The notes under the pieces were generated by a model. That model did not search any database. It was given only the letters and a program-made list of their open reading frames with translations, and had not been told where the DNA came from. The position numbers and the translations under genes were made by a program. 64,000 nucleotides of DNA, from positions 62,001 to 126,000 of the forward strand of contig NZ_JAAQPI010000009.1 in the NCBI RefSeq assembly GCF_011683955.1, given 5' to 3'. Positions 12,301 through 32,578 of the stretch are shown piece after piece. Each line of letters begins with the position of its first letter. Positions within the stretch are counted from its first letter, which is position 1. Source of the stretch: Pseudomaricurvus alkylphenolicus. Its GTDB lineage: Bacteria; Pseudomonadota; Gammaproteobacteria; Pseudomonadales; Cellvibrionaceae.

Positions 12301-12825
12301 ATGCATGACAAACACTGGCATATGGCGACCAACGAGCATGAGGTCTGCCTGACAGAGTTTGAGTTTGCACTATTGCGAGTCAACGAGGCCTTTAACCGCT
12401 GGATGGACGATTGTGCGGCCTGCAGCAGCAACGAAAATGTGAATGGTATGGATTTCGCTGTGCTCAACATCATCCATATGCACGACCGGCCCAAGGGCAT
12501 CACGGAAATCAGTCGCCTGATGAACCGTGAAGACACCTCCAATATGCAGTACTGCATCCGCAAATTGATGAAAGCCGATCTGATTGAAAAAGTAACGACG
12601 GGCGGTGTAAAAAAAGGTGCGACCTACCAGGTGACTGAGGCGGGTAAAGCCATGACCAGCCAGTACGTGTCACTGCGCAAAAACCTGCTACTCTCCCTGA
12701 CGGCACAAATTTCTAACAGTGAAGGAAAGCTCGAAGACGCCTCGCAAGTGCTGAACCTGATGTCAGGCCTGTATAACCAGGCCTCCTGCCTGGCAGCCAC
12801 TCACCGGCTTCCGAGTCATCCGTGA
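12301..12825 (+). CDS. MarR-like winged-helix transcriptional regulator
   Basis: From the ATG at 12301 the protein has 174 residues. AAGAGGGG sits seven bases upstream, which favours this ATG over a TTG six bases earlier. A winged-helix domain spans about residues 45-125: MDFAVLNIIHMHDRPKGITE, ISRLMNREDTSNMQYCIRKL as recognition region, then a wing (VTTGGVKKGATYQVTEAGKA). A short C-terminal helical region follows. It resembles MarR/HTH_27 regulators. It borders the N-methyl-compound locus, is divergent from the 9.5-12 kb TBDR operon and convergent with folD (7 bp gap), so either side could be its target. Confidence 0.8.
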   Translation: MHDKHWHMATNEHEVCLTEFEFALLRVNEAFNRWMDDCAACSSNENVNGMDFAVLNIIHMHDRPKGITEISRLMNREDTSNMQYCIRKLMKADLIEKVTTGGVKKGATYQVTEAGKAMTSQYVSLRKNLLLSLTAQISNSEGKLEDASQVLNLMSGLYNQASCLAATHRLPSHP

Positions 12826-12832
12826 GGGCGCG

Positions 12833-13711
12833 TCAAGGAATTGCTATCCCTCGCTGACTGCAGCTTGCTGTCAACGTATTCTGCAACAAACAGGCTATGG
12901 TCATGGGGCCAACACCGCCGGGCACCGGGGTGATAGCGCCGGCAACTTCCTGTGCCTCAGCGTAGTCTACGTCGCCCACCAGTTGGGTTTTTCCGGCGGC
13001 GGTGTCGATACGATTGATACCCACATCAATCACCGTCGCACCGGGTTTAATCCAATCACCTTTGATCATTTGCGGGCGGCCAACAGCGGCGACAATAATA
13101 TCCGCATCGGAACACAAGCTGCCAAGATTCTCAGTGCGGGAATGGGCAAGGGTCACTGTGCAGTTTTCCTGCAGTAGTAACAGGGCCACCGGTTTGCCAA
13201 CAATATTGGAGCGGCCAATCACCACGGCGTGCTTGCCGGACAAATCATCCCCCAAGTGTTGTTTGGCCAGGATAATACAACCCTGTGGGGTACAGGGCAC
13301 CAGGGCTGCGGTCTGCCCGTTCATTAATCGTCCGGAATTGATGGTATGAAATCCATCCACGTCTTTTTCCGGAGCGATAGTTTCAATCACCGCATTTTCG
13401 TCGATATGCGCAGGCAAGGGCAGCTGCACCAATATCCCATTTACAGCAGGATCATTATTGAGTTGATCGATTCTTGCCAAGAGTTCTGCCTGTGAGATGT
13501 CCGGGGGCATGCGATACTCCATACTCTTCATACCCACTTCCAGTGTCTGGCGTACCTTGTTACGGACATACACCTGACTGGCCGGGTCTTCACCGACCAG
13601 AATAACAGCCAACCCGGGCTGCAGGTCATATTGTTCTATAAGAACTCTTACCGAGTCCGCTATAGATTGACGCAGATTTTCCGCGGTTGATTTTCCGTCT
13701 ATAACCATCAT
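12833..13711 (-). CDS. folD: Bifunctional methylenetetrahydrofolate dehydrogenase / methenyltetrahydrofolate cyclohydrolase
   Basis: The 292-residue protein has the FolD signatures: [16 protein letters not shown] with the catalytic Lys-region, [28 protein letters not shown], the nucleotide-binding [19 protein letters not shown], and the C-terminal [18 protein letters not shown]. It converts 5,10-methylene-THF to 10-formyl-THF. It lies 48 bp downstream of an MFS gene on the same strand and near purU and a GcvT-like gene. In this setting it likely oxidises C1 units released by demethylation, with PurU finishing to formate. Whether it is the only FolD of the genome cannot be seen here. Confidence 0.95.
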
Positions 13712-13759
13712 TGTTCTCTCTCAGTTAGATGTGATTCCAAGGCGGCCTTCCGGCGTTGG

Positions 13760-14971
13760 TCAGCTGGAGCTGAGTGGTACGGCCTTGAGGTCTGAAGATC
13801 GGCGTGTCAGGTACAGCTCTGTGGCTATAAAGATAACCGTACTGATAATGGCGGTGACAGCCGCAAGAAGATAGACGTAGGCGTAGCTGCCATCAATGAT
13901 AAGATTCCCTGCAAGCGCGGGACCAATGGCGGAGCCCAGGAGCTGGCAGGCAGGTATCAGCGGAGTAAAACGCCCTCTACTGTCTCCCTCGGTAATGATC
14001 GTCATTTGAAAGGGGAGGACAAAATTCCAGGCCGCCGCATAGAAGAAAACCGCTGTCCCAAAACTCCAGGGAGTTTTACAGATGGGCAGGAGGTAAAGCG
14101 ATGCGACGCAGGCTACAGTGGCTCCAATGATAGGCCAGCAGCGACCAAAACGCGTTCCTATGGCCGATGCCAGAAACGCACCAGCGGCGCTGAGTACCAG
14201 CGTAATTCCAAAAATAGCACCCAGCTCCCCACTGGTTATTCCACCCTGGATACCGATGCGTTCGAGAAACGCCCATACGCCGGACTGGCCAATAAAATAG
14301 AGCATCATGCCCGAAATTCCCCAACAGACGGCACCGTTGGAACCGGTACCTTTTGTCACATTGGCAACTGGAAGCCGTTCGGCGCCTTTGGCATCGTTCT
14401 TCGGTAACCGCGGTATCAATAACATCGAAGCGATGGCCACTCCCGCCAGAGCGAACATGACGCCTTGAAAACCCCATTCGGGGACAACAAAAATAGGTAG
14501 CAGACAGGCGCCTATGCCTGCCAGGGTTACCTGGATACCTATGCCATAGCCAAACGATTGATCGGGATTGTCGGTATCGCCCAGGCACGTCAGCACACAG
14601 GACACGATGCTGGCATTGGTCACCCCCAACAGGAAAAATGTAACCAACAAACTGTTGTACTCGAGGTGACCGGCAATAGCATAAATGGAGGCTGAGATGA
14701 GTGTCGTGAGGAACACCACTTTGCGCCAGTCCAAGCGCCTGACCCAAAACACCGCCGATATATTGGAAAGTGTTGAACCCGCCATATAGATCGAGCCCAG
14801 ATACCCGATCTGTTTTTCGTTGAGTCCGAGGCTGTCCGCGGCAGAACCGAGGATCAATGGCAACATGTTGTAAATCAGGTAGGCAATTGCCAACAAGGTC
14901 GCCGCTGAAAAAACCGTTGAGGGTTTGTTGATCATCTCGGTGGCGGGATGGGGGCTGGAAGATTGTGTCAC
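13760..14971 (-). CDS. MFS transporter of the N-methyl-compound locus
   Basis: About 12 hydrophobic segments are present, with MFS-like loops (LGLNEKQIGYLGSIYMAGST after helix 1 and VRRLDWRKVVFLTTLIS between helices 2 and 3). I prefer the GTG at 14971 (VTQSSSPHPATEMINKPST), giving about 403 residues. Translation from the ATG at 15085 would add a 38-residue polar leader that the family lacks, though that start cannot be excluded. The gene is divergent from the enoyl-CoA hydratase operon and shares with it a 380-bp intergenic region holding a LuxR-type box. folD follows 48 bp downstream. Probable inner-membrane importer of the substrate or exporter of a product. Confidence 0.8.
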   Translation of the reverse strand: MTQSSSPHPATEMINKPSTVFSAATLLAIAYLIYNMLPLILGSAADSLGLNEKQIGYLGSIYMAGSTLSNISAVFWVRRLDWRKVVFLTTLISASIYAIAGHLEYNSLLVTFFLLGVTNASIVSCVLTCLGDTDNPDQSFGYGIGIQVTLAGIGACLLPIFVVPEWGFQGVMFALAGVAIASMLLIPRLPKNDAKGAERLPVANVTKGTGSNGAVCWGISGMMLYFIGQSGVWAFLERIGIQGGITSGELGAIFGITLVLSAAGAFLASAIGTRFGRCWPIIGATVACVASLYLLPICKTPWSFGTAVFFYAAAWNFVLPFQMTIITEGDSRGRFTPLIPACQLLGSAIGPALAGNLIIDGSYAYVYLLAAVTAIISTVIFIATELYLTRRSSDLKAVPLSSS

Positions 14972-15160
14972 TGTATTCGCTCTCGATATGAGTTCAAGGT
15001 CATGCCTGATGTTTATCTGAATACTACTGAAGTTAGATATACGTTCAATAGGCCGGAAGAGCAAAGGCGGGGAGTGGCTGCTCAAACACTCGATTATGGC
15101 CCTGGTGCCGTTAACCTAACCTATTGAAAACGTGAAGGTTTGTGGTGCGGATCTATCGTT

Positions 15161-15283: not shown

Positions 15284-15351
15284 CACGGCGCGGTGGTTGA
15301 GAGACTTGCTTGGTGGTGAGCACGAAAAGCAAGAACGATAGGAGAGCAACG

Positions 15352-16134: not shown

Positions 16135-16140
16135 ACGATT

Positions 16141-17298
16141 ATGAATTTTGAATTAACGTCAGAACATGAAATGCTGGTCAGCTCAATTCGGGCCTTTGTG
16201 GAGCAGGAGTTGCTGCCCTATGAGGCGGAAGTGGATCACAACGATCAGGTTCCTCCGGAACTGGCGGCCCAGATTCGAAACAAGGCGTTGGAGATGGGTT
16301 TTTACGCGTTCAATATGCCCGCAGAAGTGGGTGGGGGTGGTTTGGATTATGTTTCTCAAGCCCTGATTGAACGAGAGTTATCCAAAGTGAGTTGGGCGTT
16401 GCATGTGTTTGTGGCAAGGCCTTCAAAAATTCTGATGGCCTGCCAGGGCAGCCAAATTGATGACTATCTCAAGCCCTGCGTGCGCGGTGAGAAAATTGAT
16501 TGTTTTGCGCTCACCGAACCGGATGCAGGATCGGATGCGGCGAGTATCAAAACCCGCGCTGAACGGGATGGCGATCACTTTGTCTTGAAAGGCAGCAAAC
16601 ACTTTATCAGCCACGCCGGGCATGCGGACTTTGCCATTGTCTTTGCGGTAACGGGCAACAAGGAAGTCAAAGGGCGTGTCAGAAATGAAGTCACGGCGTT
16701 TTTGGTGGACACCAACAGCAAAGGCCTGGAGATTCATCGTGGGCCCAAGTGTGTCAGTAATCGTGGCTACCATACCTACGAATTGTTTTTTGATGACTGC
16801 AGGATCTCTGCCGCCAATATCCTGGGGGAAGAAGGCAAAGGCTGGGACGTTGCCAACGACTGGTTGTCTGCAGGTCGCGTCATGGTGGCGGCCAATTGCG
16901 TGGGGCAGGCCCAGCGTGCCATGGGCGAGGCCGTGGCCTGGAGTGCAGAGCGCCAACAGTTCGGACGTGCCATTGGCAAGAATCAGGGTGTCTCTTTTAA
17001 ACTTGCCAATATGGCCACAGAGATTCGGGCCGCGGATCTGATGACCCTGTACACCGCCTGGAAAATGGATCAGGCTAGCATGACCGACGGTGATGCCGCC
17101 ATGGCGAAACTGTTTGCCAGTGAAATCCTGGGAAGAGTCGCCGATGAGGCGGTGCAGATATTTGGCGGTATGGGGTTGATGGATGAACTGCCCATTGAAC
17201 GTATCTGGCGCAATGCTCGGATTGAAAGAATTTGGGAGGGGACTTCCGAAATTCAGCGTCACATCATTTCTCGCGAATTACTAAGGCCTTTTGAATAG
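16141..17298 (+). CDS. Acyl-CoA dehydrogenase
   Basis: The 385-residue protein has the standard fold order: N-terminal helical domain, FAD/acyl-CoA-binding CFALTEPDAGSDAASIKTRA with a following FVLKGSKHFISHAGHADF, and the C-terminal domain ending in RIERIWEGTSEIQRHIISRE. The EGTSEIQR motif carries the canonical catalytic Glu, so the enzyme should be active. A GGAGG site precedes the ATG. It is co-transcribed with the crotonase 6 bp upstream and closed by a terminator at 17312. A carnitine/butyrobetaine-type or DmdC-like CoA ester is possible given the surrounding genes, but the chain cannot be deduced. Confidence 0.9.
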   Translation: MNFELTSEHEMLVSSIRAFVEQELLPYEAEVDHNDQVPPELAAQIRNKALEMGFYAFNMPAEVGGGGLDYVSQALIERELSKVSWALHVFVARPSKILMACQGSQIDDYLKPCVRGEKIDCFALTEPDAGSDAASIKTRAERDGDHFVLKGSKHFISHAGHADFAIVFAVTGNKEVKGRVRNEVTAFLVDTNSKGLEIHRGPKCVSNRGYHTYELFFDDCRISAANILGEEGKGWDVANDWLSAGRVMVAANCVGQAQRAMGEAVAWSAERQQFGRAIGKNQGVSFKLANMATEIRAADLMTLYTAWKMDQASMTDGDAAMAKLFASEILGRVADEAVQIFGGMGLMDELPIERIWRNARIERIWEGTSEIQRHIISRELLRPFE

Positions 17299-17311
17299 AG
17301 AACGGCTGTTT

Positions 17312-17334
17312 GGGGCCTGGCGGCAGGCCCCTTT
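17312..17334 (+). terminator. Intrinsic terminator after the acyl-CoA dehydrogenase
   Basis: GGGGCCTG and CAGGCCCC form an 8-bp GC-rich stem with a 4-nt loop, 13 bp after the stop codon, followed by a short T tract. Confidence 0.7.
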
Positions 17335-17399
17335 ATCCGCCCGATATTCTTTTCTACGCTCCTCTTCCCAATATCATTTCTACTCACCGTTCCGCTTCT

Positions 17400-17417: not shown

Positions 17418-17482
17418 ATACCAGATCTGCCCCTCAGGTAGCATAAACCTCAATGTTCACCTACACGCACAGAGGTTTTTCG

Positions 17483-19588
17483 ATGGCAAGTTGCGACAAA
17501 ATAAAACGCTTGTTGAACCCACAACACATCGCTTTCGTGGGCGGCAGCAATATGGCCAGTGCCGTCAAACGCTGCCGCGCCAGTGGCTTTGAAGGTGAGG
17601 TGTGGCTGGTTAACCCTAAACACAAGAGCATCGATGGCGAACGCTGTTTTGCAACGGTCAAGGACCTGCCGCAGGCGCCGGATGCCAGTTTTATCGGTGT
17701 TGGTCGTGAAGCAACCGTCAACATTGTGCGAGACTTGAATAAACAGGGTGCCGCCGGTGCTATCTGTTACGCGTCGGGCTTCTCGGAAGCGGGCGAAGAA
17801 GGGGAGGTGCTGCAACATCAATTGCTGCAAGCTGCTGGCGAAATGGCACTTATTGGTCCCAATTGCTACGGCATGTTGGATTATCTGCACGGTGCCGCGC
17901 TCTGGCCTGTCGCTCATGGGGGGACTCGGGTTGACAAGGGCGTGGCCATATTGACCCAGAGTGGCAACTTTGCCTACAACCTGTCGATGACGGATCGTTC
18001 GCTCCCTGTTTCCTATATGGTCAGTGTCGGCAATCAGGCCAGCGTGGAAGTAGCGGATCTCATCGACGCATTGTTGGATGAGCCGCGAGTCACCGCCATC
18101 GGGCTGCATCTTGAGGGGCTCAAAAACGTCGCCGGCTTTGCTGCTGCCGCCATGCGCGCACTGCAAAAAGGTGTTCCCATCATCGCTCTGAAAACCGGAC
18201 GATCTTCGATCGGCGCGGAATTGGCTTTAAGCCACACCAGCTCCCTGGCAGGCTCCGACGAACTCTATGACAGCTTGTTCGACCGCGTGGGAGTCATTCG
18301 AGTGAGCGGACCGGTGAGTTTTGTAGAAACCTTAAAGGTACTGGCACAGGGCAAACTGCCACAGGGGAACAAGGTGGCCGCACTGGCCTGTTCCGGTGGT
18401 GACGCCGGTTTGATTGCTGATTACTGCGAGAGCAATCAGCTGGCGTTGCCTCCCTTGCAGGCGGAACAGACTCGGACCCTGACGCAACTGTTGCCGGATT
18501 TTGCCAATGTTGCCAACCCTCTGGACTTTACCACCGCGATTTGGGGAGACGAAAACGCACTGAACGCCTGTGCGGACGCCATGTTGGCGGGTGACTGCGA
18601 TGCGGGTTTTCTGGTGCTGGATTATCCGGCGGAGCAAACCGGAGAGCGTGCTGAATGCGACCTGATGGCCCGGGTTTTTCAGCGTGCCTTGGAGAAAAGG
18701 GGAATCCCCGGGGCAGTGGCGTCAGTTTTTCCGGAGCTTTTGCCCTCTTCGGCGCGAGAGATGTTGCACCAACTGGGAATCCCTGCCCTGCAGGGCGTCG
18801 AGGAGGGTTTAGCGGCTATGGGACGTGCGGTTCAGTATGTCCGTCGCCGCCGGGCGTTACTGTCTCTGGGTAAATCCTCGAAGCTGCTGCCAATAGCGGC
18901 TCCCTCTTTGACGCAGGAGGCTCAGTTGATGGACGAATGGCAGAGCAAAAAGACGCTGGCTGCGTATGGTTTGCCAGTGCCTCAGGGTCAATTGGTGCAT
19001 CACTCCGAAGCCGTTGCAGCTGCGGAACTGATGGCGTACCCGGTGGTGGTAAAAGTGGTCAGCAGCGAATTGCCGCATAAAACCGAAGCCGGCGCTGTTT
19101 CCCTGAACTTGTCGTCTGCGGATGCTGTCGCTGCCGCCGTGGAGGAGATGGTGACCAACGTTAAACTTAGCGCTCCCCACGTAGACACCGAACGAGTTCT
19201 GGTAGAAAAAATGTCGCAGCCGCCGGTGGCGGAACTGATTGTGGGAGTGAAACGCGAGCCCGGTTTTGGCCTGGCCCTGGTTATCGGCTCGGGGGGGATC
19301 CTGGTGGAGCTGCTGCAGGACAGTGTCAATCTGCTGTTGCCGACAACAGAGGCGGAAATTACAGCAAGCCTTGAACGGTTGAAAGTATACAAGGTCATGT
19401 CGGGTTTTCGCGGAAAACCGGCTGGCGATATTCAGGCAACGGTCGCGGCCATCATGGCGGTGGCCAATTACGCGGTGGACAACGCTGAACACCTCGCCGA
19501 GTTGGACGTCAATCCGTTATTGGTATTGCCCGAGGGGGAGGGTGCCGTGGCGGTGGACGCATTGATCAGAACGACTGCAGAGATGTAA
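17483..19588 (+). CDS. ADP-forming acyl-CoA synthetase, fused alpha-beta (acetate--CoA ligase family)
   Basis: From the ATG at 17483 (AGAGG seven bases upstream; the ATG at 17453 would nearly coincide with the inferred transcript start) the protein has 701 residues. Order of domains: CoA-binding Rossmann (KRLLNPQHIAFVGGSNMASA), succinyl-CoA-ligase-like flavodoxin domain with the phospho-His motif ALSHTSSLAGS, and a C-terminal ATP-grasp domain (PVVVKVVSSELPHKTEAGAV; VVAELIVGVKREPGFG-like segment PVAELIVGVKREPGFGLAL; LDVNPLLVLPEG). It would form an acyl-CoA from a carboxylate with ATP to ADP. It starts the operon with the aminotransferase and LuxR regulator and carries a perfect operator. The likely role is to activate the deaminated or demethylated carboxylate for the dehydrogenase and crotonase. 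Confidence 0.88.
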   Translation: MASCDKIKRLLNPQHIAFVGGSNMASAVKRCRASGFEGEVWLVNPKHKSIDGERCFATVKDLPQAPDASFIGVGREATVNIVRDLNKQGAAGAICYASGFSEAGEEGEVLQHQLLQAAGEMALIGPNCYGMLDYLHGAALWPVAHGGTRVDKGVAILTQSGNFAYNLSMTDRSLPVSYMVSVGNQASVEVADLIDALLDEPRVTAIGLHLEGLKNVAGFAAAAMRALQKGVPIIALKTGRSSIGAELALSHTSSLAGSDELYDSLFDRVGVIRVSGPVSFVETLKVLAQGKLPQGNKVAALACSGGDAGLIADYCESNQLALPPLQAEQTRTLTQLLPDFANVANPLDFTTAIWGDENALNACADAMLAGDCDAGFLVLDYPAEQTGERAECDLMARVFQRALEKRGIPGAVASVFPELLPSSAREMLHQLGIPALQGVEEGLAAMGRAVQYVRRRRALLSLGKSSKLLPIAAPSLTQEAQLMDEWQSKKTLAAYGLPVPQGQLVHHSEAVAAAELMAYPVVVKVVSSELPHKTEAGAVSLNLSSADAVAAAVEEMVTNVKLSAPHVDTERVLVEKMSQPPVAELIVGVKREPGFGLALVIGSGGILVELLQDSVNLLLPTTEAEITASLERLKVYKVMSGFRGKPAGDIQATVAAIMAVANYAVDNAEHLAELDVNPLLVLPEGEGAVAVDALIRTTAEM

Positions 19589-19598
19589 GGAGAGAAGT

Positions 19599-21014
19599 AT
19601 GACTGAGAGAGATATGGCGCAATTTGAGCAATACAATACCAGCGATCTATGGCAAAAAGACCGGGACCACCACCTGCATCCCTGGCAGCACTTTGACTCC
19701 TTCCGGGAAGCGGGAGCCACAGTCATGGTGCAAGGTGATGGCTGTTACGTCTACGATTCAGATGGCGGCCGCTACTTTGACGGCATTGGCGGTATGTGGT
19801 GTGTCAATATTGGTTATGGTCGCGAAGAAATGGTGGAGGTGATCGCTGAGCAAACCCGCCGTCTGCCCTATTTTAATCCCTTTGTGGATACCACCAATGC
19901 CCCGGCGGCGGAGTTGGCTTCGAAGCTGGCGCAGTGGGCGCCGGGTTCGCTAAACCACGTCTTTTTCAGTTGTGGGGGATCAACAGCCAACGACACCGCG
20001 TTCCGTCTGATCCAATTTTATCAGTCCTGCCGTGGCAAACCGCAAAAGCAACACATTATTGCCCGTGAAGACAGCTATCATGGCAGCACCTACGTGGCCA
20101 TGTCTATTGGTGGCAAAGCGGCGGACCATGTTCCCGAGTTCAGTTATATCACCGACACCATACATCATGTATCCAGCCCCAATAGCTATCGCCGCCCCGA
20201 GGGTGCCAGCGAAAGTGAGTTTTGCGATCACTTGATCTCCGAGTTGGAAAACAAAATATTGTCCATCGGGCCCGAAAAGGTCGCCGCCTTTTTCGCAGAA
20301 CCGATTATGGGTTCCGGCGGTGTGATTGTACCGCCGGCCGGTTACCATCGTCGTACCTGGGAGCTGTGTAAACAATACGATGTGCTCTACGTTTCCGATG
20401 AAGTGGTGACGGCTTTTGGTCGCCTGGGTCATATGTTCGCTTCCGAGGAGGTCTTTGGTATCCAGCCGGATATCATCACCTGCGCCAAGGGCTTGTCTTC
20501 CGGGTATTTGCCTTTAGGCGCTACAATATACTCTGACGAAATTCACCAGGTTATCGATGAGGCGGGCGAGAACCGCAGTTTTGCTCATGGCTTCACCTAT
20601 TCGGCACACCCGGTTTGTTGTGCGGCGGCGTTAAAGAATATGGAGATACTTGAGAGGGACAACATCCTGGGGCAGGTTCAGGAGGTCGGGCCTTACTTTG
20701 AACAGCAACTGCGGAGTCTAATGGATCTTGAAATCGTTGGTGACGTCCGCGGCCACCAATTTATGATGTGTGTGGAAAACGTGGCCAACAAGGAAACCAA
20801 AGCGCTGCTGTCGGACGAAATTGACGTCGGCAAGCGTATTACGCAGCACTGTGAGTCGATGGGGCTGCTGGTGCGTCCCATCGGCCATCTTAATGTCTTG
20901 TCCCCTCCGTTGACAATGACGCGGGAGCAGGTGGATTTTGTCGTTGAGGTCCTGCGGAGCAGTATCAAAAAGACCATGGATGACTTGGTAAAAGAGGGGC
21001 TGTGGAAGGGTTGA
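19599..21014 (+). CDS. Class III (omega-amino acid type) PLP aminotransferase
   Basis: The 471-residue protein begins 10 bp after the synthetase with a clean GGAG site. It has the class III layout: FDGIGGMWCVNIGYG near residue 61, SCGGSTANDTAFRL near 124, the PLP-contact YVSDEVVTAFGRLGHMF (Asp267), and the Schiff-base lysine in ITCAKGLSSGY (Lys297). Relatives are beta-alanine, putrescine and taurine:pyruvate aminotransferases that remove a terminal amino group. In this locus it would act after N-demethylation exposes a primary amine and yield a semialdehyde or keto acid. No aldehyde dehydrogenase is encoded close by, so the next oxidation must be supplied elsewhere. Confidence 0.9.
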   Translation: MTERDMAQFEQYNTSDLWQKDRDHHLHPWQHFDSFREAGATVMVQGDGCYVYDSDGGRYFDGIGGMWCVNIGYGREEMVEVIAEQTRRLPYFNPFVDTTNAPAAELASKLAQWAPGSLNHVFFSCGGSTANDTAFRLIQFYQSCRGKPQKQHIIAREDSYHGSTYVAMSIGGKAADHVPEFSYITDTIHHVSSPNSYRRPEGASESEFCDHLISELENKILSIGPEKVAAFFAEPIMGSGGVIVPPAGYHRRTWELCKQYDVLYVSDEVVTAFGRLGHMFASEEVFGIQPDIITCAKGLSSGYLPLGATIYSDEIHQVIDEAGENRSFAHGFTYSAHPVCCAAALKNMEILERDNILGQVQEVGPYFEQQLRSLMDLEIVGDVRGHQFMMCVENVANKETKALLSDEIDVGKRITQHCESMGLLVRPIGHLNVLSPPLTMTREQVDFVVEVLRSSIKKTMDDLVKEGLWKG

Positions 21015-22020: not shown

Positions 22021-22079
22021 TTACCCATTTTGGGGCTTCGGTAGCATTATCGTATCTGATGTTACCCAGGTATAACCCA

Positions 22080-24155: not shown

Positions 24156-24188
24156 ATATATTCGTTGAAAAACAATTTGGAGAGAACT

Positions 24189-25088: not shown

Positions 25089-26234
25089 ATGTCTGAAGAA
25101 ATGTTGGACACCCCTTTTAATCCGCTACAACGCCAATACAATGACAAGGTCGAATTTGGTCCTTGGGGGGCTTATAAAAGCCCCAACGTGATGTCTGATG
25201 TCAAGCGGGAAAACCTGGCGGTGCGTAATAACGCTATCGTGTTTGACATGACACCGGTCAACAAGTACGCCATTCATGGGCCGGATGCCTGCCGTTTTCT
25301 CAATTACCTGACGACCCGACAAATGGATATCGAACCCGGGCGTGTCACCTACACCTGTTGGTGTAACCCCAACGGCAAGATCATTGATGACGGCACGGTA
25401 TTCCGCGTCAGCGAAAACGAATACCGCCTTTATCCGGCGGCGAACCAGACGGCCTATCTTCAGCAGGTGGCCGGAGACTTCGATGTTGAGGTGACTGATG
25501 TCACCCATGATTCAGCGGTCTTGTCAGTGCAGGGCCCCAAGTCCTTTGCCTTGCTAAAGGAAATGGGCATTGAGGGGTTGGAAACCCTAAAGCCGTTTCG
25601 CTTTGCCGATTTTACATTGGGCTCTGAAGAGCTGCGTATTTCCCGCACCGGATTTTCCGGTGACCTGGGTTACGAGCTGTGGATGCAAAAAGACCAGTCA
25701 GAAACCTTGTGGAATGCCCTGATTAGCGTCGGTGTCGAACCCATGGGCATGGAGGCGCTTTTGACGATGCGACTGGAAGCCGCTTTGATTCTGCCCGATG
25801 AAGGCTTTGAGCTGGAAGGCGCTTCCTACGACGGTAACAGCGATTCCGAGATGTCCCGATCGCCGTTTGAAGTGGACATGGCCTGGTTGATCAATTGGGA
25901 GAAGGGTGACTTTATTGGCCGCGATGCCCTGGCATCAGAAAAAACAGCTGGATCAAAATTCCGCTTGATCGGTCTGGAACTGGAAGGCACTCTCGCCTCT
26001 GAATTTGGGGCAACTGTCCTTGATATGCAGGGGCAATCGCTGGGTCTGGTGACGTCTGGTTGCTATTCAGAAGCCTTACAGCGCAATATCGCCTTGGCTT
26101 CGGTTACGGATAACTTCGGTGATGTTGGTCAACATTGCCAAGTGGTTATCGGAGAGACTACGGTGACCGCCACCGTGGTCCAGCGGCCTTTCTTTAATGA
26201 CCCACGCCGGAATGCAATACCGCCGCAACTGTAA
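25089..26234 (+). CDS. GcvT-like aminomethyltransferase / THF-dependent demethylase
   Basis: The 381-residue protein has the GCV_T fold: VFDMTPVNKYAIHGPDACRF, GKIIDDGTVFRV (the conserved Asp of T-protein), VLSVQGPKSFALL, ISRTGFSGDLGYELWM, and a GCV_T_C domain (KFRLIGLELEG). No FAD domain is fused, unlike dimethylglycine and sarcosine dehydrogenases, so it resembles stand-alone THF-dependent demethylases of the DmdA/GcvT group. No glycine-cleavage P or H genes are nearby, which argues against a housekeeping gcvT. It likely moves a methyl or methylene group from an N-methylated intermediate to THF, feeding FolD and PurU. AAGGAG precedes the ATG and a bidirectional terminator follows. Confidence 0.85.
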   Translation: MSEEMLDTPFNPLQRQYNDKVEFGPWGAYKSPNVMSDVKRENLAVRNNAIVFDMTPVNKYAIHGPDACRFLNYLTTRQMDIEPGRVTYTCWCNPNGKIIDDGTVFRVSENEYRLYPAANQTAYLQQVAGDFDVEVTDVTHDSAVLSVQGPKSFALLKEMGIEGLETLKPFRFADFTLGSEELRISRTGFSGDLGYELWMQKDQSETLWNALISVGVEPMGMEALLTMRLEAALILPDEGFELEGASYDGNSDSEMSRSPFEVDMAWLINWEKGDFIGRDALASEKTAGSKFRLIGLELEGTLASEFGATVLDMQGQSLGLVTSGCYSEALQRNIALASVTDNFGDVGQHCQVVIGETTVTATVVQRPFFNDPRRNAIPPQL

Positions 26235-26308: not shown

Positions 26309-26656
26309 CTACTCAATAATGGTATACACCTTACGCACCGTTTCAGTGACCTCGCTGGTGCCTTTCCAGCCGCGGGGAAAAGCAAAACTGTCGCCCGCCT
26401 TGAGCACGGTGACCTCGCCCTTGTCATCGGTCAGTGTCCAGATACCTTTGATCAGATGGCAGAACTCCATTACCCCAAGGTCAAGTTTCAATTTGCCGGG
26501 TTCACACTCCCAGGTCCCCATGGTTGTACCCTGGCCATCGTCAAAGAACTGGTTATAACTTTGCTTCGGCAGTGGGCCGATGGGTTCGCCGAAGGAAGGA
26601 CATTCGGCCAGATCGGTAAGGGCAAGCGGTTGTTTTTGTACAGAGAGGGCTGTCAT
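26309..26656 (-). CDS. Cupin-domain protein (DUF861-like)
   Basis: I start at the ATG at 26656 (MTALSVQKQPLALTDLAECP), giving 115 residues with an AGGA site upstream. A longer in-frame reading from 26815 crosses a terminator hairpin and has non-protein-like composition. The single cupin domain includes GVMEFCHLIKGIWTLTDDKG and VLKAGDSFAFPRGWKGTSEV, a pattern seen in small cupins beside amine and ureide catabolic genes. It may bind or process a metabolite. It is last in the Rieske / FAD-enzyme / cupin series and is separated from them by a terminator-like hairpin and a repeat element. Confidence 0.75.
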   Translation of the reverse strand: MTALSVQKQPLALTDLAECPSFGEPIGPLPKQSYNQFFDDGQGTTMGTWECEPGKLKLDLGVMEFCHLIKGIWTLTDDKGEVTVLKAGDSFAFPRGWKGTSEVTETVRKVYTIIE

Positions 26657-26681
26657 AGTGATGGTTCCTAATAAGAATTGT

Positions 26682-26710
26682 AAAAAACGGCAGCAGCAGA
26701 GGTCTCCTGC
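26682..26710 (-). terminator. Intrinsic terminator just before the cupin gene
   Basis: On the minus strand ACGGCAG and CTGCCGT form a 7-bp stem with a 10-nt loop followed by a run of T (26687-26682 read as T). It lies only about 26 nt before the cupin ATG, so it ends most transcripts from the FAD-enzyme gene and leaves the cupin gene dependent on readthrough. Confidence 0.65.
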
Positions 26711-26759
26711 CGTGGGATATTTAGCTAGTGTCCATCTGGAAACACTGTTTGGGCCAGGT

Positions 26760-26871
26760 GTAGGGTGGATTAGCCAAAGGCGTAATCCACCAATTACCGG
26801 TAAAGTGCCAGACAAAAGGTGGATTCCAAAAGTAGGCGCTTTAGGCGACGCCTTTGGCTAATCCACCCTAC
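26760..26871. repeat. MITE/REP-like inverted repeat element, 112 bp
   Basis: Perfect 23-bp terminal inverted repeats (GTAGGGTGGATTAGCCAAAG plus GCG, and its complement) flank a core that itself holds a second dyad (AATCCACC / GGTGGATT). The GTAGGGTGGATTA end is a sequence seen at the ends of many dispersed, non-coding repeats in proteobacteria. There is no open reading frame inside. The RNA would fold into a long stem in the 3' region of the FAD-enzyme transcript. Confidence 0.85.
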
Positions 26872-26908: not shown

Positions 26909-28522
26909 CTAGGCCACCCGGTGCCAGCGGAAATCCTTCAGGATCTCTTTGGCGGCATTGTGCCCGGGGCAACCGGTAACGCCGCCGCCAGGATGTGCTC
27001 CGGCGCCGCAGAGGTAAAGATTGGCAACTGGCATGCGATAGTTGGCATAACCGGCAGTGGGGCGCATGGCAAAGGTCTGGTCCATATGCAAACAGCCGTG
27101 GAAGATATCACCGCCCACCAGTCCAAAGTCGCGTTCCAGATCCAGTGGTGTCAGCACCATGCGGCCAAGAATAATGTCTTTGAGGTTGGGGGCGTACTGG
27201 GCCACGGTATCGATAATCTGATCCGCAACCTGTTCCTTAATGTCGTCCCAGTTCTGCCCTTCCGGTAACTCCGGGTTAAAGTGCTGGCAGAACATGCTCA
27301 TAACATGTTGGCCTTTGGGCGCCAGTGAGTCATCGTAAAGCGAGGGAATAAACATCTCTACCATGGGCGCTTTCGACCAACCCGTAGCGATCGCTTCGCT
27401 ATAGGCGGTTTCGGCATAGGCTTTTGACGGGCTCAGCAGGATACTGCCGCGCAAAAACGGTTCGCGGTCTTGCTCTTTTTCCAGGCAGGAGAAATCGGGA
27501 AGCCCTGATAACGCAAGATTCATACGCAGGCTGCCGGAGCGGCATCGGTAGTTGCTCATTTCACGGCTGAAACTCGCCGGTACATGTTGGCTGTCCACCA
27601 GCTTATTGAACAGCAATTTGGGGTTGGTATTGGCAGCGACCACGCGCGCATGGATTTCGCGACCGTCCTGTAAACGCACCCCCCGGGCAACACCGTTTTT
27701 GATGATGACATCAGCTACGGGGGCATTGACTTCAATATCCACACCGTGTGCTTCTGCGGACTTGGCCATGGCCTGAGTGATCGAGCCCATGCCGCCCTGT
27801 GCATGGCCCCAGGCGCCCTTGATACCGTTGACTTCACCAAACATATGGTGGAGCAATACATAGGCGGAGCCGGGAGCGTAAATGCTTTGCATATTGCCCA
27901 CCAGTGCCACGTAAACCCAGGCGCCGCTGAGGGTTTCACCATCTATCCATTCGGCCAGGTAATCCGCAACGCTCATGGTGAAGAGCTTGATGGTTTCCCG
28001 TTGAAGTTCCGGGCTGAGCTTACGAACGCGATTGGCGATTTTACCGGCACGGAAGGCGTCCATCAGCCCTCCGCCAACATTGGGCGGGGTTTCCAGTACC
28101 AGATCGCGCAATACATCGGCAACCTGCTCCAGCACAACCTCCATGGCGTGGAAGCCTTCAGCGTCTTTTTGGCAATAGCGCGCAATCTGCCGGGCGTTGC
28201 GTTCTTCATCCTTGGTCAGGTGTATAAACTTGTTGTCGTGGCCAAGCGTCAAGGAAGAGTAATCCCGGGTGGTGATATTGAGCCCGTATCTATTAAGCTC
28301 CAGATCGCTGACGATCTTGGGGTTTAAAAGGCTCACCGTGTAGGAACAAATCGAGTTTCGAAAACCGGGATGAAACTCCTCGGTAACAGCGGCACCGCCA
28401 ACGATATGACGTTGCTCAACAACCTTGACGGACAGGCCTGAACGGGCCAGATAACCTGCGCAGGTCAGTCCGTTGTGACCGGCGCCGACAATGACAACGT
28501 CGTATTCCGACATCTTGCTCAT
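26909..28522 (-). CDS. FAD-dependent oxidoreductase, phytoene-desaturase/PYROXD2-like
   Basis: The start is the ATG at 28522 (AGGAGAATAAC upstream), giving 537 residues; an upstream in-frame extension to 28612 lacks a ribosome site. The N-terminus has a dinucleotide-binding motif (YDVVIVGAGHNGLTCAGYLA, then VVEQRHIVGGAAVTEEFHPG). The C-terminus has the flavin-binding GAGAHPGGGVTGCPGHNAAK. This family includes carotenoid desaturases and poorly known amine or alkyl oxidoreductases. There are no carotenoid genes here, and the gene lies downstream of the Rieske oxygenase in one operon, so oxidation of an N-methylated or cyclic amine intermediate is more likely. Exact reaction unknown. Confidence 0.8.
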   Translation of the reverse strand: MSKMSEYDVVIVGAGHNGLTCAGYLARSGLSVKVVEQRHIVGGAAVTEEFHPGFRNSICSYTVSLLNPKIVSDLELNRYGLNITTRDYSSLTLGHDNKFIHLTKDEERNARQIARYCQKDAEGFHAMEVVLEQVADVLRDLVLETPPNVGGGLMDAFRAGKIANRVRKLSPELQRETIKLFTMSVADYLAEWIDGETLSGAWVYVALVGNMQSIYAPGSAYVLLHHMFGEVNGIKGAWGHAQGGMGSITQAMAKSAEAHGVDIEVNAPVADVIIKNGVARGVRLQDGREIHARVVAANTNPKLLFNKLVDSQHVPASFSREMSNYRCRSGSLRMNLALSGLPDFSCLEKEQDREPFLRGSILLSPSKAYAETAYSEAIATGWSKAPMVEMFIPSLYDDSLAPKGQHVMSMFCQHFNPELPEGQNWDDIKEQVADQIIDTVAQYAPNLKDIILGRMVLTPLDLERDFGLVGGDIFHGCLHMDQTFAMRPTAGYANYRMPVANLYLCGAGAHPGGGVTGCPGHNAAKEILKDFRWHRVA

Positions 28523-28630
28523 GTTATTCTCCTGAGTGGTTATCCCCGGGATTGGGGATAACACACATTTACTGTATAGCGATGGGCGTCTGACAAGACG
28601 GAAAAATCGCATTTTATCCTTTTCGTGTTT

Positions 28631-28663: not shown

Positions 28664-29977
28664 CTAAATGGAGAAGATAGCTTCCCCGGTATAGTCATCC
28701 GGATTGATATTGAGTTTGCTGGTAGGGCGCTCCGCGGCGGACAGCATCTTGAGGTAGTGACGAATAAACGTCTCGCAGTTACCTTCCAGTTTGCTGTAGG
28801 GGCCCGGGCGATAGCGGTCTGAAAGTACACCTTTCTGGTTATCGATGATGATTTTGGCATCCTGTTCCGTGGTCACTTCCCACAACCAGGCGACGCGATC
28901 GGGCTCGTAGTCGACCCCTTCCTCAGCATCCTTGTGGACCAGATAGGTGATGGTGACATCGCTCTCCAGGGTATCCAGTGGCGTAAAGCGCAGCAGTGCC
29001 ACGTAGTCGTCGGAAACCAGCAAGTAGAGGTTTTCCCCGAAGGCGAAAAAGGCATCGCCACCGTCGTAATCCGTGAGATCCCCCAGCAACTTCTTGCACG
29101 CCGGGCCGCCGTCCTGAGTGGTGGAAACGGCGTTGTCTTTGATCACCTGGCGCGAGACTCGCAGGGATTGGTCCGGGCAGGGTGGCTCAAAGTAACCGAC
29201 TTTCCGGCCCTGCGCCTTGGCTTTCTCCAGCCAGCGGTTGTACATGACACGGTACTTTTCCATTCCCTCTTCGGTGCCGTCGCCATCGTAAGTCACGTGG
29301 CCCATGGTCGAGCAATACTCCGGGTGGGAGGGGCGGCAGTGGTAACACTCCAGAAAGTTCTCCACCACCAGTTTCCAGTTGGCGGGGGTGGGGAAATGCC
29401 GCACGGTTGCAATCTTGGTGTCGGCGAGTTTATAGGGGGCTATCCAGGGGAGGTAGTTGTCAGCGATATAGTCAAAATCCGGTGCCTCTTCTTCCTTGCC
29501 AAGATAGATAAAAATCAGTCCCTCAAACACACGCACCTGACAGGAATGCAGGCTGTAGTCGTTGGGGTCAAAGCCATCGGGCATCTGGCGGGCATTGGCC
29601 AGGCGACCGTCCAGCTCAAAGGACCAGGCGTGATAGGGACAGGTCAGGCGGCGCTTTCGACCTTGCTTCTCCAGGCACAGACGAGAGCCTCTGTGCCGAC
29701 AGACATTGAAGTGTGCATGGATTTTATCCTCGTCACCGCGGGTGATAATAATCTCTTCACCGGCGATAGTGAACAGGAAGAAATCGCCACGATTTGGAAT
29801 ACGGCTGACATGATCCACGAATTGCCACTGCCGAAAAATAACCCGCTCCTTGTCCAATTGAAAAAACTCGGGACTGGTATAGAAGGGCTGTTCGAGGGTA
29901 AATCCGGGCTGCTGGCGGTCGATGAATCCCTCAACGTCATGAGTAAGATCTAGTTGACGGGCGTCAATCTTTTGCAT
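28664..29977 (-). CDS. Rieske non-haem iron oxygenase, glycine-betaine/stachydrine demethylase-like
   Basis: The 437-residue protein has a Rieske centre with Cys93-x-His95 (VCRHRGSRLC) and Cys113-x2-His116 (TCPYHAWSF). A catalytic domain contains ANWKLVVENFLECYHCRPSH, with Glu210, His213 and His218 in the mononuclear-iron region. Length and motifs fit the GbcA / Stc2 / CntA group, which removes a methyl from quaternary ammonium compounds as formaldehyde. AAGGAG precedes the ATG. The reductase partner (GbcB/CntB type) is not in the window and must be supplied elsewhere. Upstream are two tandem LuxR-type boxes. The next gene downstream is the FAD oxidoreductase. I infer that it performs the first demethylation of the imported quaternary amine. 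Confidence 0.9.
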   Translation of the reverse strand: MQKIDARQLDLTHDVEGFIDRQQPGFTLEQPFYTSPEFFQLDKERVIFRQWQFVDHVSRIPNRGDFFLFTIAGEEIIITRGDEDKIHAHFNVCRHRGSRLCLEKQGRKRRLTCPYHAWSFELDGRLANARQMPDGFDPNDYSLHSCQVRVFEGLIFIYLGKEEEAPDFDYIADNYLPWIAPYKLADTKIATVRHFPTPANWKLVVENFLECYHCRPSHPEYCSTMGHVTYDGDGTEEGMEKYRVMYNRWLEKAKAQGRKVGYFEPPCPDQSLRVSRQVIKDNAVSTTQDGGPACKKLLGDLTDYDGGDAFFAFGENLYLLVSDDYVALLRFTPLDTLESDVTITYLVHKDAEEGVDYEPDRVAWLWEVTTEQDAKIIIDNQKGVLSDRYRPGPYSKLEGNCETFIRHYLKMLSAAERPTSKLNINPDDYTGEAIFSI

Positions 29978-30137: not shown

Positions 30138-30198
30138 TCCGCTGGAGCAGTGGCGGTCAGTTAAGCCAATATGTTAAATACTAGCCAAAACGGAGAGC

Positions 30199-32469
30199 TC
30201 AGAACTCATAGTGCAAATCAATTCCGAGAGTGCGTCCCGGGATGATATTGCCGATGATGTTTGCTGGAATAAAGCCGGTCTCTGGTGTGAACGATTGGCT
30301 ATAAGCGTATTCGTCAAACAAATTGTCAACGAAGGCGGAAATTCGCCAATTATCGTCCGAACGATAGCCGATGCGCAGGTTGGTCAGCTCATAATCTCCG
30401 CCCATTCTGGGGCCGCCACTGGAGTCGTTGTTGGTCAGAAACTCGTCCGTATAAGCGTAGGAGACCGTGGTAAAGAGTTCTCCGTTCCAGCCGGGAACAG
30501 GGTGTGCGTAATTCACCACCGTAGAGAATGTCCATTCCGGTGTGAACTGATTTGGCTCTCCCACCTGTCCTGGTGACGATGAGAATTTCTTGATTTCCGA
30601 GTCGATGTAGGAGAAGTTCAGAAAAATGTCCCAGTGGTCATTAGGAACAAACCGAAAATCCGCTTCCAGCCCTCTGCCTTCCAATTCCTCCACGGTATCC
30701 AGCACAAAAGCGGCGCCCCGTGACACCAGTACCTGTAAATCATTAAAGCGATAGAAATAAGCGGCAATGTTGGCCTGCAGGGTCTGATCGAACCAGTAGG
30801 ACTTCAAACCAATTTCGAAGCTGTCATTGGTTTCCGGATCACCGGATGCAGGGGTTGCGCCTTCGGCGCTGGCATCCAGGGTTCCTTGATAGATATTGGC
30901 TTGCAAAACCTCCTCGGCGACACCCTCGATAGATACCGAGTCGAAGGCACCTGACTTCCATCCCTGTGCCCAGGCGAAGTAAGTGGTGACCGAGTCGGCG
31001 ACCTCATAGTCAATCGCTATGCGCAGGGAAACATCGTCCCAGTCCTTATCGCCAACAATGGGTGAGGATGTATGGTAGCCATAGACAAAACAGGAGCAAC
31101 CGGTGGACCAGTCGCCCGGAGGATTAAGCAGCCCGGGGTCGGGGACATATTGCGAAAATTTCTTGTCATCGAAACTGTAACGCGCGCCGCCCGTCAGGTT
31201 GATTCGCTCAGTCAATTCATAGGTGATGTCGGCGAAAACCGACCAACCTGAATACTCACCCTCAAAGAAACCGACTTCTCGGGTGGGCATGTCATAGTAG
31301 ACAGTGTCGGCAAAAGGCTGAGAGAGGTCGAGAAAATAACCCAGAGAACCGGTCAACTCCTCACGATAGTAGCTGCCACCCAAGACCACGGAGAGGCCGG
31401 ATTCACTCTCGTAATTGACCCGAATCTCTTGTTGAAACAACTCGACATCCTGAGTCTGGGTATAGGGTGAAGCCACAATCGTCAGGTCAGTTCCATCGAA
31501 GTCCTCGGCGTAGTCGTATTTCGCCTCCCTATAGCTGGTGATGGAGGTCAAGGTCGTCTGATCGCTCAATTCAAATTTCAGAGTGCCGGACATTTCCTGC
31601 AAGCGCGAATTGGACTTGAGCTCGCGGTCGGATAAGTCCGAGATGATGTCGAATTCACCCAATGGGGCAGAGAACCCGGAGGCCGCCGCAGCGAGTTCCG
31701 ATTGTGGCCCGGTGAGCTGGTAGATATTGGGAGCTTCTTTACGGTCTTCGTAATTCAGGTATAACATTCCCTCCCAGTCATCGCCGTGATATAGGGCGGT
31801 CAAGCGGCCGGCCTTGATATCGTTTTCACCCACATCCTGTCCGTCGGCGAGATTATGGAGAAATCCGTCCTCGTCCTGGGTGTGGAATCCGGCCCGAATG
31901 GCAAAGCGATCATTGATCGGGACATTCAGTACGCCCGTGGCCTGGACTCGATTTCGGCTGCCGACTCCCAGGTCAATATAACCGCCCAATTCGTGGCTGG
32001 GCTTTTCCGTCTGAATGCTGTAGGCGCCGGCAATGGTACTGCGTCCAAACAATGTGCCCAGCGGCCCTTTGATCACTTCCACCTGTGCCACATCATAGAG
32101 CGAAATCGCCTGGGCACCGTTGCGCCCCTGGTAGACGCCATTCACAAAGACACCTATCTGCGGGTCAAAACCTGACGAGAACTGGGGTGAGCCCACTCCG
32201 CGGACAGACGTTTTCTCTGTAAACGGGTAGTTTGGCGTAGAGCTGACACCGGGAACAAACAGGAAGATGTCAGTCACATCATCCATGTTGAGGTTGTCCA
32301 TGGTTTCTCCGTCCATGGCACTGACGGAAATGGGAACGTCCTGCAGACTTTGTTCACGTTGCTGCGCGGTGACGATTATTTCCTCAATTTGCGCGAAAGA
32401 ACTCAGCGGTACGGTAGAAATGGCGATGGCGAGAAGGTGCTTGGCGAATCTATTACACGGTTTGTTCAT
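30199..32469 (-). CDS. TonB-dependent outer-membrane receptor of the N-methyl-compound locus
   Basis: From the ATG at 32469 (CCGGAGAAAATC upstream) the product has 756 residues. A signal peptide ends near VPLSSFA, then come the TonB-box area (IEEIIVTAQQREQSLQDVP), a plug with VEVIKGPLGTLFGRSTIAG, and a barrel ending HYEF with terminal Phe. The in-frame ATG nine codons earlier has no ribosome site. A LuxR-type box stands 92 bp before the start in the gene's own orientation, so the receptor belongs to the same regulon as the demethylases. The likely job is outer-membrane uptake of the locus substrate, which implies a molecule that does not pass easily through general porins. Confidence 0.9.
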   Translation of the reverse strand: MNKPCNRFAKHLLAIAISTVPLSSFAQIEEIIVTAQQREQSLQDVPISVSAMDGETMDNLNMDDVTDIFLFVPGVSSTPNYPFTEKTSVRGVGSPQFSSGFDPQIGVFVNGVYQGRNGAQAISLYDVAQVEVIKGPLGTLFGRSTIAGAYSIQTEKPSHELGGYIDLGVGSRNRVQATGVLNVPINDRFAIRAGFHTQDEDGFLHNLADGQDVGENDIKAGRLTALYHGDDWEGMLYLNYEDRKEAPNIYQLTGPQSELAAAASGFSAPLGEFDIISDLSDRELKSNSRLQEMSGTLKFELSDQTTLTSITSYREAKYDYAEDFDGTDLTIVASPYTQTQDVELFQQEIRVNYESESGLSVVLGGSYYREELTGSLGYFLDLSQPFADTVYYDMPTREVGFFEGEYSGWSVFADITYELTERINLTGGARYSFDDKKFSQYVPDPGLLNPPGDWSTGCSCFVYGYHTSSPIVGDKDWDDVSLRIAIDYEVADSVTTYFAWAQGWKSGAFDSVSIEGVAEEVLQANIYQGTLDASAEGATPASGDPETNDSFEIGLKSYWFDQTLQANIAAYFYRFNDLQVLVSRGAAFVLDTVEELEGRGLEADFRFVPNDHWDIFLNFSYIDSEIKKFSSSPGQVGEPNQFTPEWTFSTVVNYAHPVPGWNGELFTTVSYAYTDEFLTNNDSSGGPRMGGDYELTNLRIGYRSDDNWRISAFVDNLFDEYAYSQSFTPETGFIPANIIGNIIPGRTLGIDLHYEF

Positions 32470-32560
32470 GATTTTCTCCGGTCTGGGGGCTTCCATTGCG
32501 GTTGCTTAGTTATTGTGCTTATGGTGTCGACAACTATCGCAACCATTGAGGAAATCGAGT

Positions 32561-32578
32561 ACTACCCCATAGGGTGAT
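32561..32578 (-). promoter_or_regulatory. LuxR-type operator (box 5) before the TBDR
   Basis: Read on the minus strand, ATCACCCTATGGGGTAGT keeps 13 of 18 positions of the perfect box, including ATCACCCTA. GATAGT (32538-32533) follows at nearly the spacing seen at the other boxes and is a -10 candidate. Confidence 0.6.

Follow-up and report, generated by a model that had tools for sequence, protein, structure and literature searches.

A candidate accessory catabolic locus for a short-chain N-methylated amine in Pseudomaricurvus alkylphenolicus, composed of modules that recur elsewhere

The genes listed below lie in a 64-kb stretch of DNA (the window, from whose first letter all positions are counted) of the genome of Pseudomaricurvus alkylphenolicus, which amounts to 8.9 Mb in 70 contigs. 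They encode enzymes of known kinds for N-demethylation, for tetrahydrofolate (THF)-linked one-carbon (C1) metabolism and for coenzyme A (CoA)-dependent degradation; it is their assembly, in a large genome, that is unusual, and the locus is composed of modules that recur elsewhere. Family calls were made by Pfam and NCBIfam scans, the Pfam scan covering 39 of the 46 open reading frames (ORFs) of at least 90 amino acids in the window. A preliminary description of this DNA had proposed a locus for the catabolism of an N-methylated amine, in which C1 genes linked to THF are combined with CoA-dependent degradation; this part of the proposal is supported. All genes which it named are intact ORFs at approximately the places given, with strong family matches.

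12295..12825, + strand, winged-helix (HTH_27) regulator; HTH_27 44.7 bits; at the edge of the locus, membership uncertain
12833..13711, - strand, FolD, methylene-THF dehydrogenase/cyclohydrolase; NF010785 462.4 bits, cut-off 396
13760..15085, - strand, major facilitator superfamily (MFS) transporter; Pfam match; 49% identity to a copy on contig C11 of the same genome
15310..16134, + strand, crotonase-family enzyme (ECH); Pfam match; 61% to the own C11 copy; differs from the CaiD type of carnitine loci
16141..17298, + strand, acyl-CoA dehydrogenase (ACAD); 52-60% to carnitine-linked ACADs, 82% to the own C11 copy
17453..19588, + strand, ADP-forming acyl-CoA synthetase (ACD) in one chain; 67% to the own C11 copy, 33-48% to carnitine-linked relatives
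19599..21014, + strand, class-III aminotransferase (AT3) of the PRK07036 family; 753.1 bits, cut-off 618
21112..21987, + strand, LuxR-type regulator; Pfam match; inside the + strand run
22059..24155, + strand, FMN/[4Fe-4S] amine dehydrogenase of the histamine dehydrogenase/trimethylamine dehydrogenase (TMADH) family; Met68, Trp272, Asp363
24165..25049, + strand, PurU, formyl-THF deformylase; TIGR00655 327.8 bits, cut-off 285.95
25089..26234, + strand, stand-alone GcvT-like protein (aminomethyltransferase fold) of a distinct subfamily; family match and alignment
26309..26815, - strand, cupin (EutQ-like, Cupin_3); lies largely opposite a doubtful ORF, 26267-26671 (+)
26909..28612, - strand, CrtO/phytoene-desaturase-like FAD oxidoreductase; family match; proposed partner of the GcvT-like protein
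28664..29977, - strand, Rieske non-haem iron oxygenase; Group V Cys-X-X-Cys (ECYHC)
30199..32496, - strand, TonB-dependent receptor (TBDR); family match

The eight + strand genes from 15310 to 26234 run head to tail with intergenic gaps of 6, 154, 10, 97, 71, 9 and 39 bases, and gaps as small as these are consistent with a single transcription unit. Curated NCBIfam cut-offs were passed by FolD, PurU and AT3. The ACD, ACAD, crotonase, FMN enzyme, GcvT-like, CrtO-like and Rieske proteins gave strong family matches and reached no NCBIfam cut-off among the models listed (for the crotonase and the CrtO-like protein, the best 25 of 72 and of 66), so that no function was assigned to these seven proteins in this way. 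The ORF at 26267-26671 (134 amino acids) has no family match and lies opposite the cupin gene; it was dropped as probably not a gene.

The sequence of the FMN enzyme places it in the histamine dehydrogenase/TMADH family. Its closest solved structures are histamine dehydrogenase (6de6, 839 bits; 3k30, 821 bits), followed by an FMN protein (6l6j, 748 bits) and TMADH (555 bits); it aligns to 6de6 over residues 10-694 and keeps the motifs PHCNG and CIGCNIC, which we take to hold the FMN-linked Cys and the 4Fe-4S cysteines. The preliminary description had called the enzyme TMADH/DgcA-like; it is closer to histamine dehydrogenase than to TMADH, and its start lies at 22059, not 22080. Positions 68, 272 and 363 presumably form the active-site bowl, with Gln/Trp/Asp in histamine dehydrogenase and an aromatic Tyr/Trp/Trp in TMADH. 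The Met/Trp/Asp of the window enzyme, in which an Asp after the 4Fe-4S cysteines (position 363) stands where TMADH has Trp, matches neither the set of histamine dehydrogenase proper nor the bowl of TMADH proper. Glu/Trp/Asp occupies these positions in 72 of the 88 relatives examined, and Met/Trp/Asp only in the window enzyme and two others (L016, L017), near which none of the testable partner genes was common to the locus, save one ECH match at 30%. A locus of the SAR324 group (L014) has AT3, the FMN enzyme (67%), polyamine-type solute-binding protein and ATP-binding cassette (ABC) transporter genes and a Rieske gene adjoining one another. At another place (L037), 18.6 kb contain no fewer than four FMN/4Fe-4S amine dehydrogenases of this family (57, 61, 54 and 30%), accompanied by an aminotransferase and a polyamine-type ABC transporter.

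The closest solved relative of the Rieske protein is 3vca (264 bits), which we take to be Stc2; the match to CntA (6y8j) has 141 bits. The protein carries CRHRG...CPYH and NWKLVVENFLECYHC, and its ECYHC aligns with the ECYHC of Stc2. According to an excerpt of PMC10952381, a Cys-X-X-Cys adjacent to the iron is found exclusively in certain Group V Rieske enzymes, oxidisers of quaternary ammonium compounds. Having both the Rieske CXH...CXXH and this Cys-X-X-Cys, the latter in common with the stachydrine and glycine betaine demethylases Stc2 and GbcA and the carnitine monooxygenase CntA, the window protein qualifies by sequence as a Group V quaternary-ammonium oxygenase. GbcA is also its best-matching model and C1 genes are present, as would be the case if the locus served ordinary glycine betaine/sarcosine demethylation of the Gbc-Dgc-Sox type. 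The match to the GbcA model NF058607, however, ends at 325.5 bits against a cut-off of 670, and sarcosine-oxidase-alpha-like genes lie separately in the genome (L003, 31%, and L004, 41% identical to a plasmid copy, with a PurU-like gene beside L004). Such a route would moreover leave the aminotransferase, ACD, ACAD and ECH unexplained. On account of the missed cut-off and the separate oxidase genes, we disfavour the plain glycine-betaine route as very unlikely.

The GcvT-like protein stays below the cut-offs for GcvT of the glycine-cleavage system (PRK00389, 248.5 against 300 bits; TIGR00528, 193.6 against 235.85), and no gcvP or gcvH neighbour turned up in the scan of 39 of the 46 window ORFs. 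It is closer to GcvT and trimethylamine N-oxide (TMAO) demethylase than to DmdA. Residues D100-D101, where an Asp presumably has a catalytic role, are invariant in an alignment of six members of the subfamily. The CrtO-like protein does not reach the model of CrtO beta-carotene ketolase (NF045689, 282 bits against a cut-off of 1000).

A profile of six GcvT-subfamily sequences was searched against a phylum sample of 377 and a class sample of 368 genomes, the own genome being left aside, and the flanks considered were 3.4 to 49.8 kb long. A single-sequence search (E<=1e-80) matched only the genome G310 besides the own genome; the profile matched more, with the subfamily being found in 15 genomes (10 of 377 in the phylum sample and 5 of 368 in the class sample). 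A CrtO-like gene lies beside it in all 15, which makes the gene at 26909-28612, missing together with the cupin from the preliminary gene list, the most constant partner of this GcvT type. A class-III aminotransferase is near in 12 (seven at 47% or above; the five others, at 25-28%, belong to a different subgroup). Polyamine-type ABC parts accompany the GcvT-like gene in 11 genomes, a Rieske gene does so in 10 and an ACD together with an ACAD in five. As a rough control, we considered 15 places of carnitine-type ACD genes without that of G298 (5.5 to 47 kb); these had an aminotransferase once, Rieske and CrtO genes never, GcvT once (32%), the FMN enzyme twice (53% and 25%) and polyamine-type ABC parts four times. 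The polyamine-type ABC link is therefore the least specific one.

Five plasmids, of Parasedimentitalea, Rhizobium SL42, Shinella, Ensifer and Fuscovulum, carry the GcvT-like gene with twin CrtO genes, aminotransferase, Rieske and polyamine-type ABC genes. On pW43C of P. marina, about 11 kb hold AT3 (51%; 651.1 bits to PRK07036), the FMN enzyme (51%), GcvT (36%), CrtO (35 and 32%) and Rieske (38%). The same families are thus grouped together on the plasmids and in the window; the plasmid clusters have a polyamine-type ABC transporter, twin CrtO genes and no FolD or PurU seen adjacent, whereas the window has TBDR and MFS genes and one CrtO, and among these plasmids the histamine-dehydrogenase-type FMN enzyme at 51% occurs only in Parasedimentitalea. 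In Rhizobium and Shinella, GcvT is followed by a small ORF, for which the window offers no convincing equivalent.

For the CoA branch, 369 genomes of the class (368 without the own) were searched for ACD relatives, and flanks were fetched for all 20 places found in 18 of the 368, many of them cut by contig ends. The fetched stretch contains an ACAD 52-60% identical to that of the window at 16 of the 20 places, adjoining the ACD in 15. All 16 have at least one of a CaiD-like carnitinyl-CoA dehydratase, a carnitine 3-dehydrogenase/HCDH and BKACE; the four places without the ACAD (ACD 30-36%) have none of these carnitine-pathway genes in their fetched flanks. Carnitine 3-dehydrogenase and carnitinyl-CoA dehydratase genes flank the pair on plasmids of R. 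etli and R. sophoriradicis, carnitinyl-CoA dehydratase on plasmids of P. marina and R. pomeroyi, and ECH, HCDH and BKACE on a plasmid of Aminobacter. In a tree of 30 ACADs, the window protein and its own C11 copy group together (99/99) and branch beside, not within, 21 carnitine-linked ACADs, whose fork has a support of 91/84, under the 95/80 star of the tool; the other ACADs are far off on long branches. The window ACAD likewise adjoins its ACD, as in the modules leading from gamma-butyrobetaine to carnitine (rhizobial carnitine clusters and, as a possible counterpart, BcoAB), where an ADP-forming-type CoA ligase adjoins an ACAD. S. meliloti BcoAB is used as gamma-butyrobetaine:CoA ligase in an excerpt of PMC8364193. 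Since the ACD-ACAD relatives are linked to carnitine-pathway genes, the compound that passes through the CoA branch is most likely gamma-butyrobetaine or one closely analogous to it.

The solved relatives of the ACD are about equally distant from it: 4-hydroxybutyrate:CoA ligase with 253 bits and, second best, the dimethylsulfoniopropionate (DMSP) lyase 7cm9 with 242 bits of overall similarity. The latter match could be taken to indicate DMSP catabolism, with the ACD as a DddX-like ATP-dependent lyase, the ACAD as acryloyl-CoA reductase, which is its best NCBIfam match, and the GcvT-like protein, which matches the DMSP demethylase model, as DmdA. Both matches are below the cut-offs (DmdA, NF009133, 119.1 against 410 bits; AcrC, 301 against 640), the GcvT-like protein is nearer GcvT and TMAO demethylase, carnitine genes lie beside the ACD relatives and no role would be left for the Rieske protein, the FMN enzyme and the aminotransferase. 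In view of the cut-offs and the neighbouring genes, we consider a DMSP route extremely improbable.

The two modules are also physically joined elsewhere. G298, of the same class, and G811, of another class of the phylum, each unite both modules at a single locus, the CoA module being of the carnitine type, and Parasedimentitalea marina has them on two separate plasmids, so that the combination is not unique. The GcvT-like match of G298 (L172, G298:C5:106254-107393) contains one TGA within the matched stretch. These joint loci bear on the question whether two or three catabolic operons, independent of each other, simply came to lie close together in the window by accident: one for the CoA steps, one for the amine and a Rieske-TBDR unit. 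The units are found on both strands, near relatives are without the full set, the other genes are missing beside most relatives of the FMN enzyme, and more TBDR and ACAD genes occur elsewhere in the window. The CoA genes, AT3, the FMN enzyme, PurU and GcvT, however, form a single + strand run, G298 and G811 join both modules, and the genome itself repeats the arrangement on contig C11; an accidental neighbourhood thus appears unlikely.

This C11 cluster (G000:C11, 455000-494800, read as L096, 455000-474900, and L100, 474901-494800) repeats ECH (61%), ACAD (82%), ACD (67%), MFS (49%) and TBDR (24%) and has in addition a Rieske gene (32%), an FMN enzyme (55%), an aminotransferase that belongs to a different subgroup (PRK07481), two genes for aldehyde dehydrogenases, a sulfotransferase gene and a thiamine pyrophosphate-dependent decarboxylase that passes the cut-off for 5-guanidino-2-oxopentanoate decarboxylase (722 against 500 bits). 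It looks like a second entry to the same acid level, starting from an alpha-amino acid and not from an amine, and is likely a second locus of the genome for a methylated amine or a guanidino compound.

Clues to the substrate come from AT3 and its surroundings. Its solved relatives bear the names of both putrescine aminotransferase and 4-aminobutyrate transaminase. Seven neighbourhoods were picked by hand from the listed rows of 25 aminotransferase and 155 Rieske records. In Phyllobacterium, the AT3 relative lies between agmatine deiminase genes and adjoins an N-carbamoylputrescine amidase, with a polyamine-type ABC transporter; in Leisingera, agmatinase and polyamine-type ABC genes accompany the FMN enzyme (56%) and a Rieske gene; and in Yoonia, agmatinase is found with the FMN enzyme (47%), a Rieske gene, an aminotransferase and an FAD protein, one part of which is GcvT-like. 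Roseovarius has a gene named 'class II histone deacetylase', which may, as we presume, encode an acetylpolyamine amidohydrolase. On four plasmids, relatives of the LuxR regulator (34-38%) either adjoin agmatinase or are next to, or at most 4 kb away from, AT3 relatives. Some of these neighbourhoods suggest that AT3 is of a putrescine/omega-amine type, and, as some relatives of AT3, LuxR and the Rieske protein lie near agmatine/putrescine genes, the substrate might be a diamine rather than a plain betaine.

Nicotine catabolism offers a parallel. The N-methylaminobutyrate oxidase of pAO1 is THF-linked, and the bond that Pno cleaves is part of an N-methylamino chain of four carbons. In the pAO1 nicotine cluster, folD and purU occur with the gene of the gamma-N-methylaminobutyrate oxidase (excerpt of PMC10494377). 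Pno, 48% identical to histamine dehydrogenase, is described as releasing methylamine from 6-hydroxypseudooxynicotine, and its cluster in A. tumefaciens S33 includes putrescine/spermidine ABC genes (excerpt of PMC5500553). The window thus resembles pAO1 in N-methylamine oxidation with FolD and PurU nearby, and S33 in a histamine-dehydrogenase-family FMN/4Fe-4S enzyme, but it has no nicotine-specific genes that we saw, its GcvT-like and FAD proteins are separate, and the Rieske protein, the aminotransferase and the CoA branch are added. Four lines, namely the carnitine linkage, the pAO1 cluster, Pno and the agmatine/putrescine neighbours, thus speak for an amine-bearing C4 chain.

It is conceivable that the compound degraded is gamma-butyrobetaine itself, or some other betaine, and that no diamine is involved, the betaine either passing directly through ACD and ACAD or being demethylated stepwise to 4-aminobutyrate, which the aminotransferase would deaminate. 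The tie of the ACD-ACAD pair to carnitine genes and the Group V motif of the Rieske protein would suit this, as would the precedent of N-methyl-4-aminobutyrate with folD/purU on pAO1 (excerpt of PMC10494377), and the double naming of AT3's solved relatives is, by sequence alone, undecisive. Some relatives of AT3, LuxR, the Rieske protein and the FMN enzyme, however, occur with agmatine/putrescine genes and polyamine-type transporters, and we regard a betaine substrate as somewhat unlikely. The guess of a 'butyrobetaine-like' compound in the preliminary description is supported, the ACD-ACAD pair being close to the carnitine-linked pair (16 of 16 places), whereas the agmatine/putrescine neighbours suggest a diamine rather than a plain betaine.

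Taken together, we read the locus as an accessory set of catabolic genes whose substrate is an N-methylated amine of short chain length, most likely C4, which would undergo stepwise N-demethylation and CoA-dependent degradation; we give this reading a probability of about 0.5. The substrate, the following order of steps and the co-regulation of the genes are what we infer from the gene families. The substrate would be taken up via the TonB receptor and the MFS carrier. The Rieske oxygenase, judged by its Group V features, would remove a methyl group from the quaternary nitrogen as formaldehyde, and the histamine-dehydrogenase-like enzyme together with the CrtO-like FAD enzyme might oxidise the remaining N-methyl or amine carbons. 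The GcvT-like protein could transfer the methylene unit to THF, and FolD and PurU, whose families are firm, would convert 5,10-methylene-THF to formate. At the primary amine end, the aminotransferase would produce an aldehyde, which an aldehyde dehydrogenase encoded elsewhere may oxidise to the acid for CoA activation, desaturation and hydration by ACD, ACAD and crotonase. The best-fitting substrate is perhaps an N-methylated putrescine-type diamine, with gamma-butyrobetaine or a less methylated 4-aminobutyrate as its oxidised form. Our literature searches returned no paper that we recognised as describing the whole gene set.

A number of observations weigh against this reading. The Pfam scan of 39 of the 46 window ORFs revealed neither an aldehyde dehydrogenase nor a Rieske reductase, and the window is without the ABC transporter seen elsewhere. 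Position 68 of the FMN enzyme is Met, where histamine dehydrogenase has Gln and TMADH has Tyr. The window CrtO is single and 35-38% identical to the first member of the twin pair found elsewhere. Among the 15 GcvT-subfamily neighbourhoods, FolD or PurU stands beside the GcvT gene in none and the FMN enzyme in one; the ACD-ACAD pair is of the carnitine type in G298 and G811 only, the three other pairs being distant (35-37% and 27-29%); and the 10 phylum matches are not independent, as seven come from one family, five of them from one genus. No CaiD, carnitine dehydrogenase or BKACE gene was found near the window locus or the own C11 stretch; one CaiD-like match (29%) is situated at 60.9 kb in the window, and BKACE has six matches in the own genome, one of them partial, with an HCDH-like neighbour (35%) only at C55, within flanks of about 1.5 kb. 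The crotonases of the window and of the C11 cluster, 61% identical to each other, are of a type other than that of the carnitine loci, and that of the window has no plasmid relative at E<=1e-60. With the carnitine genes missing and the crotonase of another type, the substrate of the own ACD-ACAD pairs may differ from that of the carnitine loci. The clue to a diamine depends on hand-picked neighbourhoods, and among these seven, Salipiger offers only a polyamine-type ABC transporter and an aldehyde dehydrogenase, while three others (Sulfitobacter THAF37 and Roseovarius W115 for AT3, Mesorhizobium for Rieske) have mixed neighbours and no clear agmatine or putrescine gene.

The distribution of the FMN enzyme also counts against it. 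The enzyme was found (E<=1e-50) in three of 143 non-own genomes of the family, two of them at 28% identity, and in none of five other genomes of the genus. Beside the best 80 of its 589 relatives, AT3 (at least 40%) occurs 8 times, Rieske 3 times and polyamine-type ABC parts 21 times, and none has a neighbouring GcvT, CrtO, ACD, ACAD, PurU or FolD at the chosen cut-offs; sharing so little neighbourhood, this enzyme is a poor marker of the cluster, for which GcvT and ACD are far better. A conserved neighbourhood, as the preliminary description had envisaged, is thus not seen in close relatives but recurs across the phylum, and the gene set, being absent from near relatives, has probably been acquired.

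Elsewhere in the 64 kb, four more TBDRs are encoded (2478-4688, 9530-12004, 40131-42833 and 52797-55148). A tight - strand lipid block (33676-39862) comprises an alpha/beta hydrolase, a wax ester/DGAT synthase, a glycerol-3-phosphate acyltransferase and a HAD-acyltransferase. At 49425-51480, two overlapping ORFs have oddly split molybdopterin-binding domains (MoCoBD_2, then MoCoBD_1 and MoCoBD_2) and represent either short subunits or a rearranged gene. Near the window edges lie a hydantoinase A family protein (226-2274) and an AtuA (acyclic terpene utilisation) family protein (61725-63533).

Much nitrogen, above all in the sea, is present in the important pool of methylated amines and betaines, and to our knowledge the genes of their catabolism are poorly known except for glycine betaine, choline, carnitine and trimethylamine. 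We tentatively put forward the possibility of a new aerobic route for N-methylated putrescines or for other polyamines that carry methyl groups. Enzymes of the Rieske, histamine-dehydrogenase-like and CrtO/GcvT kinds would strip or oxidise the N-methyl groups into folate and a putrescine-type transaminase would lead into a gamma-butyrobetaine-type CoA route, with ABC-transporter and TBDR versions across marine and soil proteobacteria. The module of GcvT, twin CrtO, Rieske and transaminase genes would be a good target for finding degraders of methylated polyamines or butyrobetaine-type compounds, and it offers a candidate function for CrtO-like oxidoreductases and stand-alone GcvT-like proteins that go under generic or misleading names.

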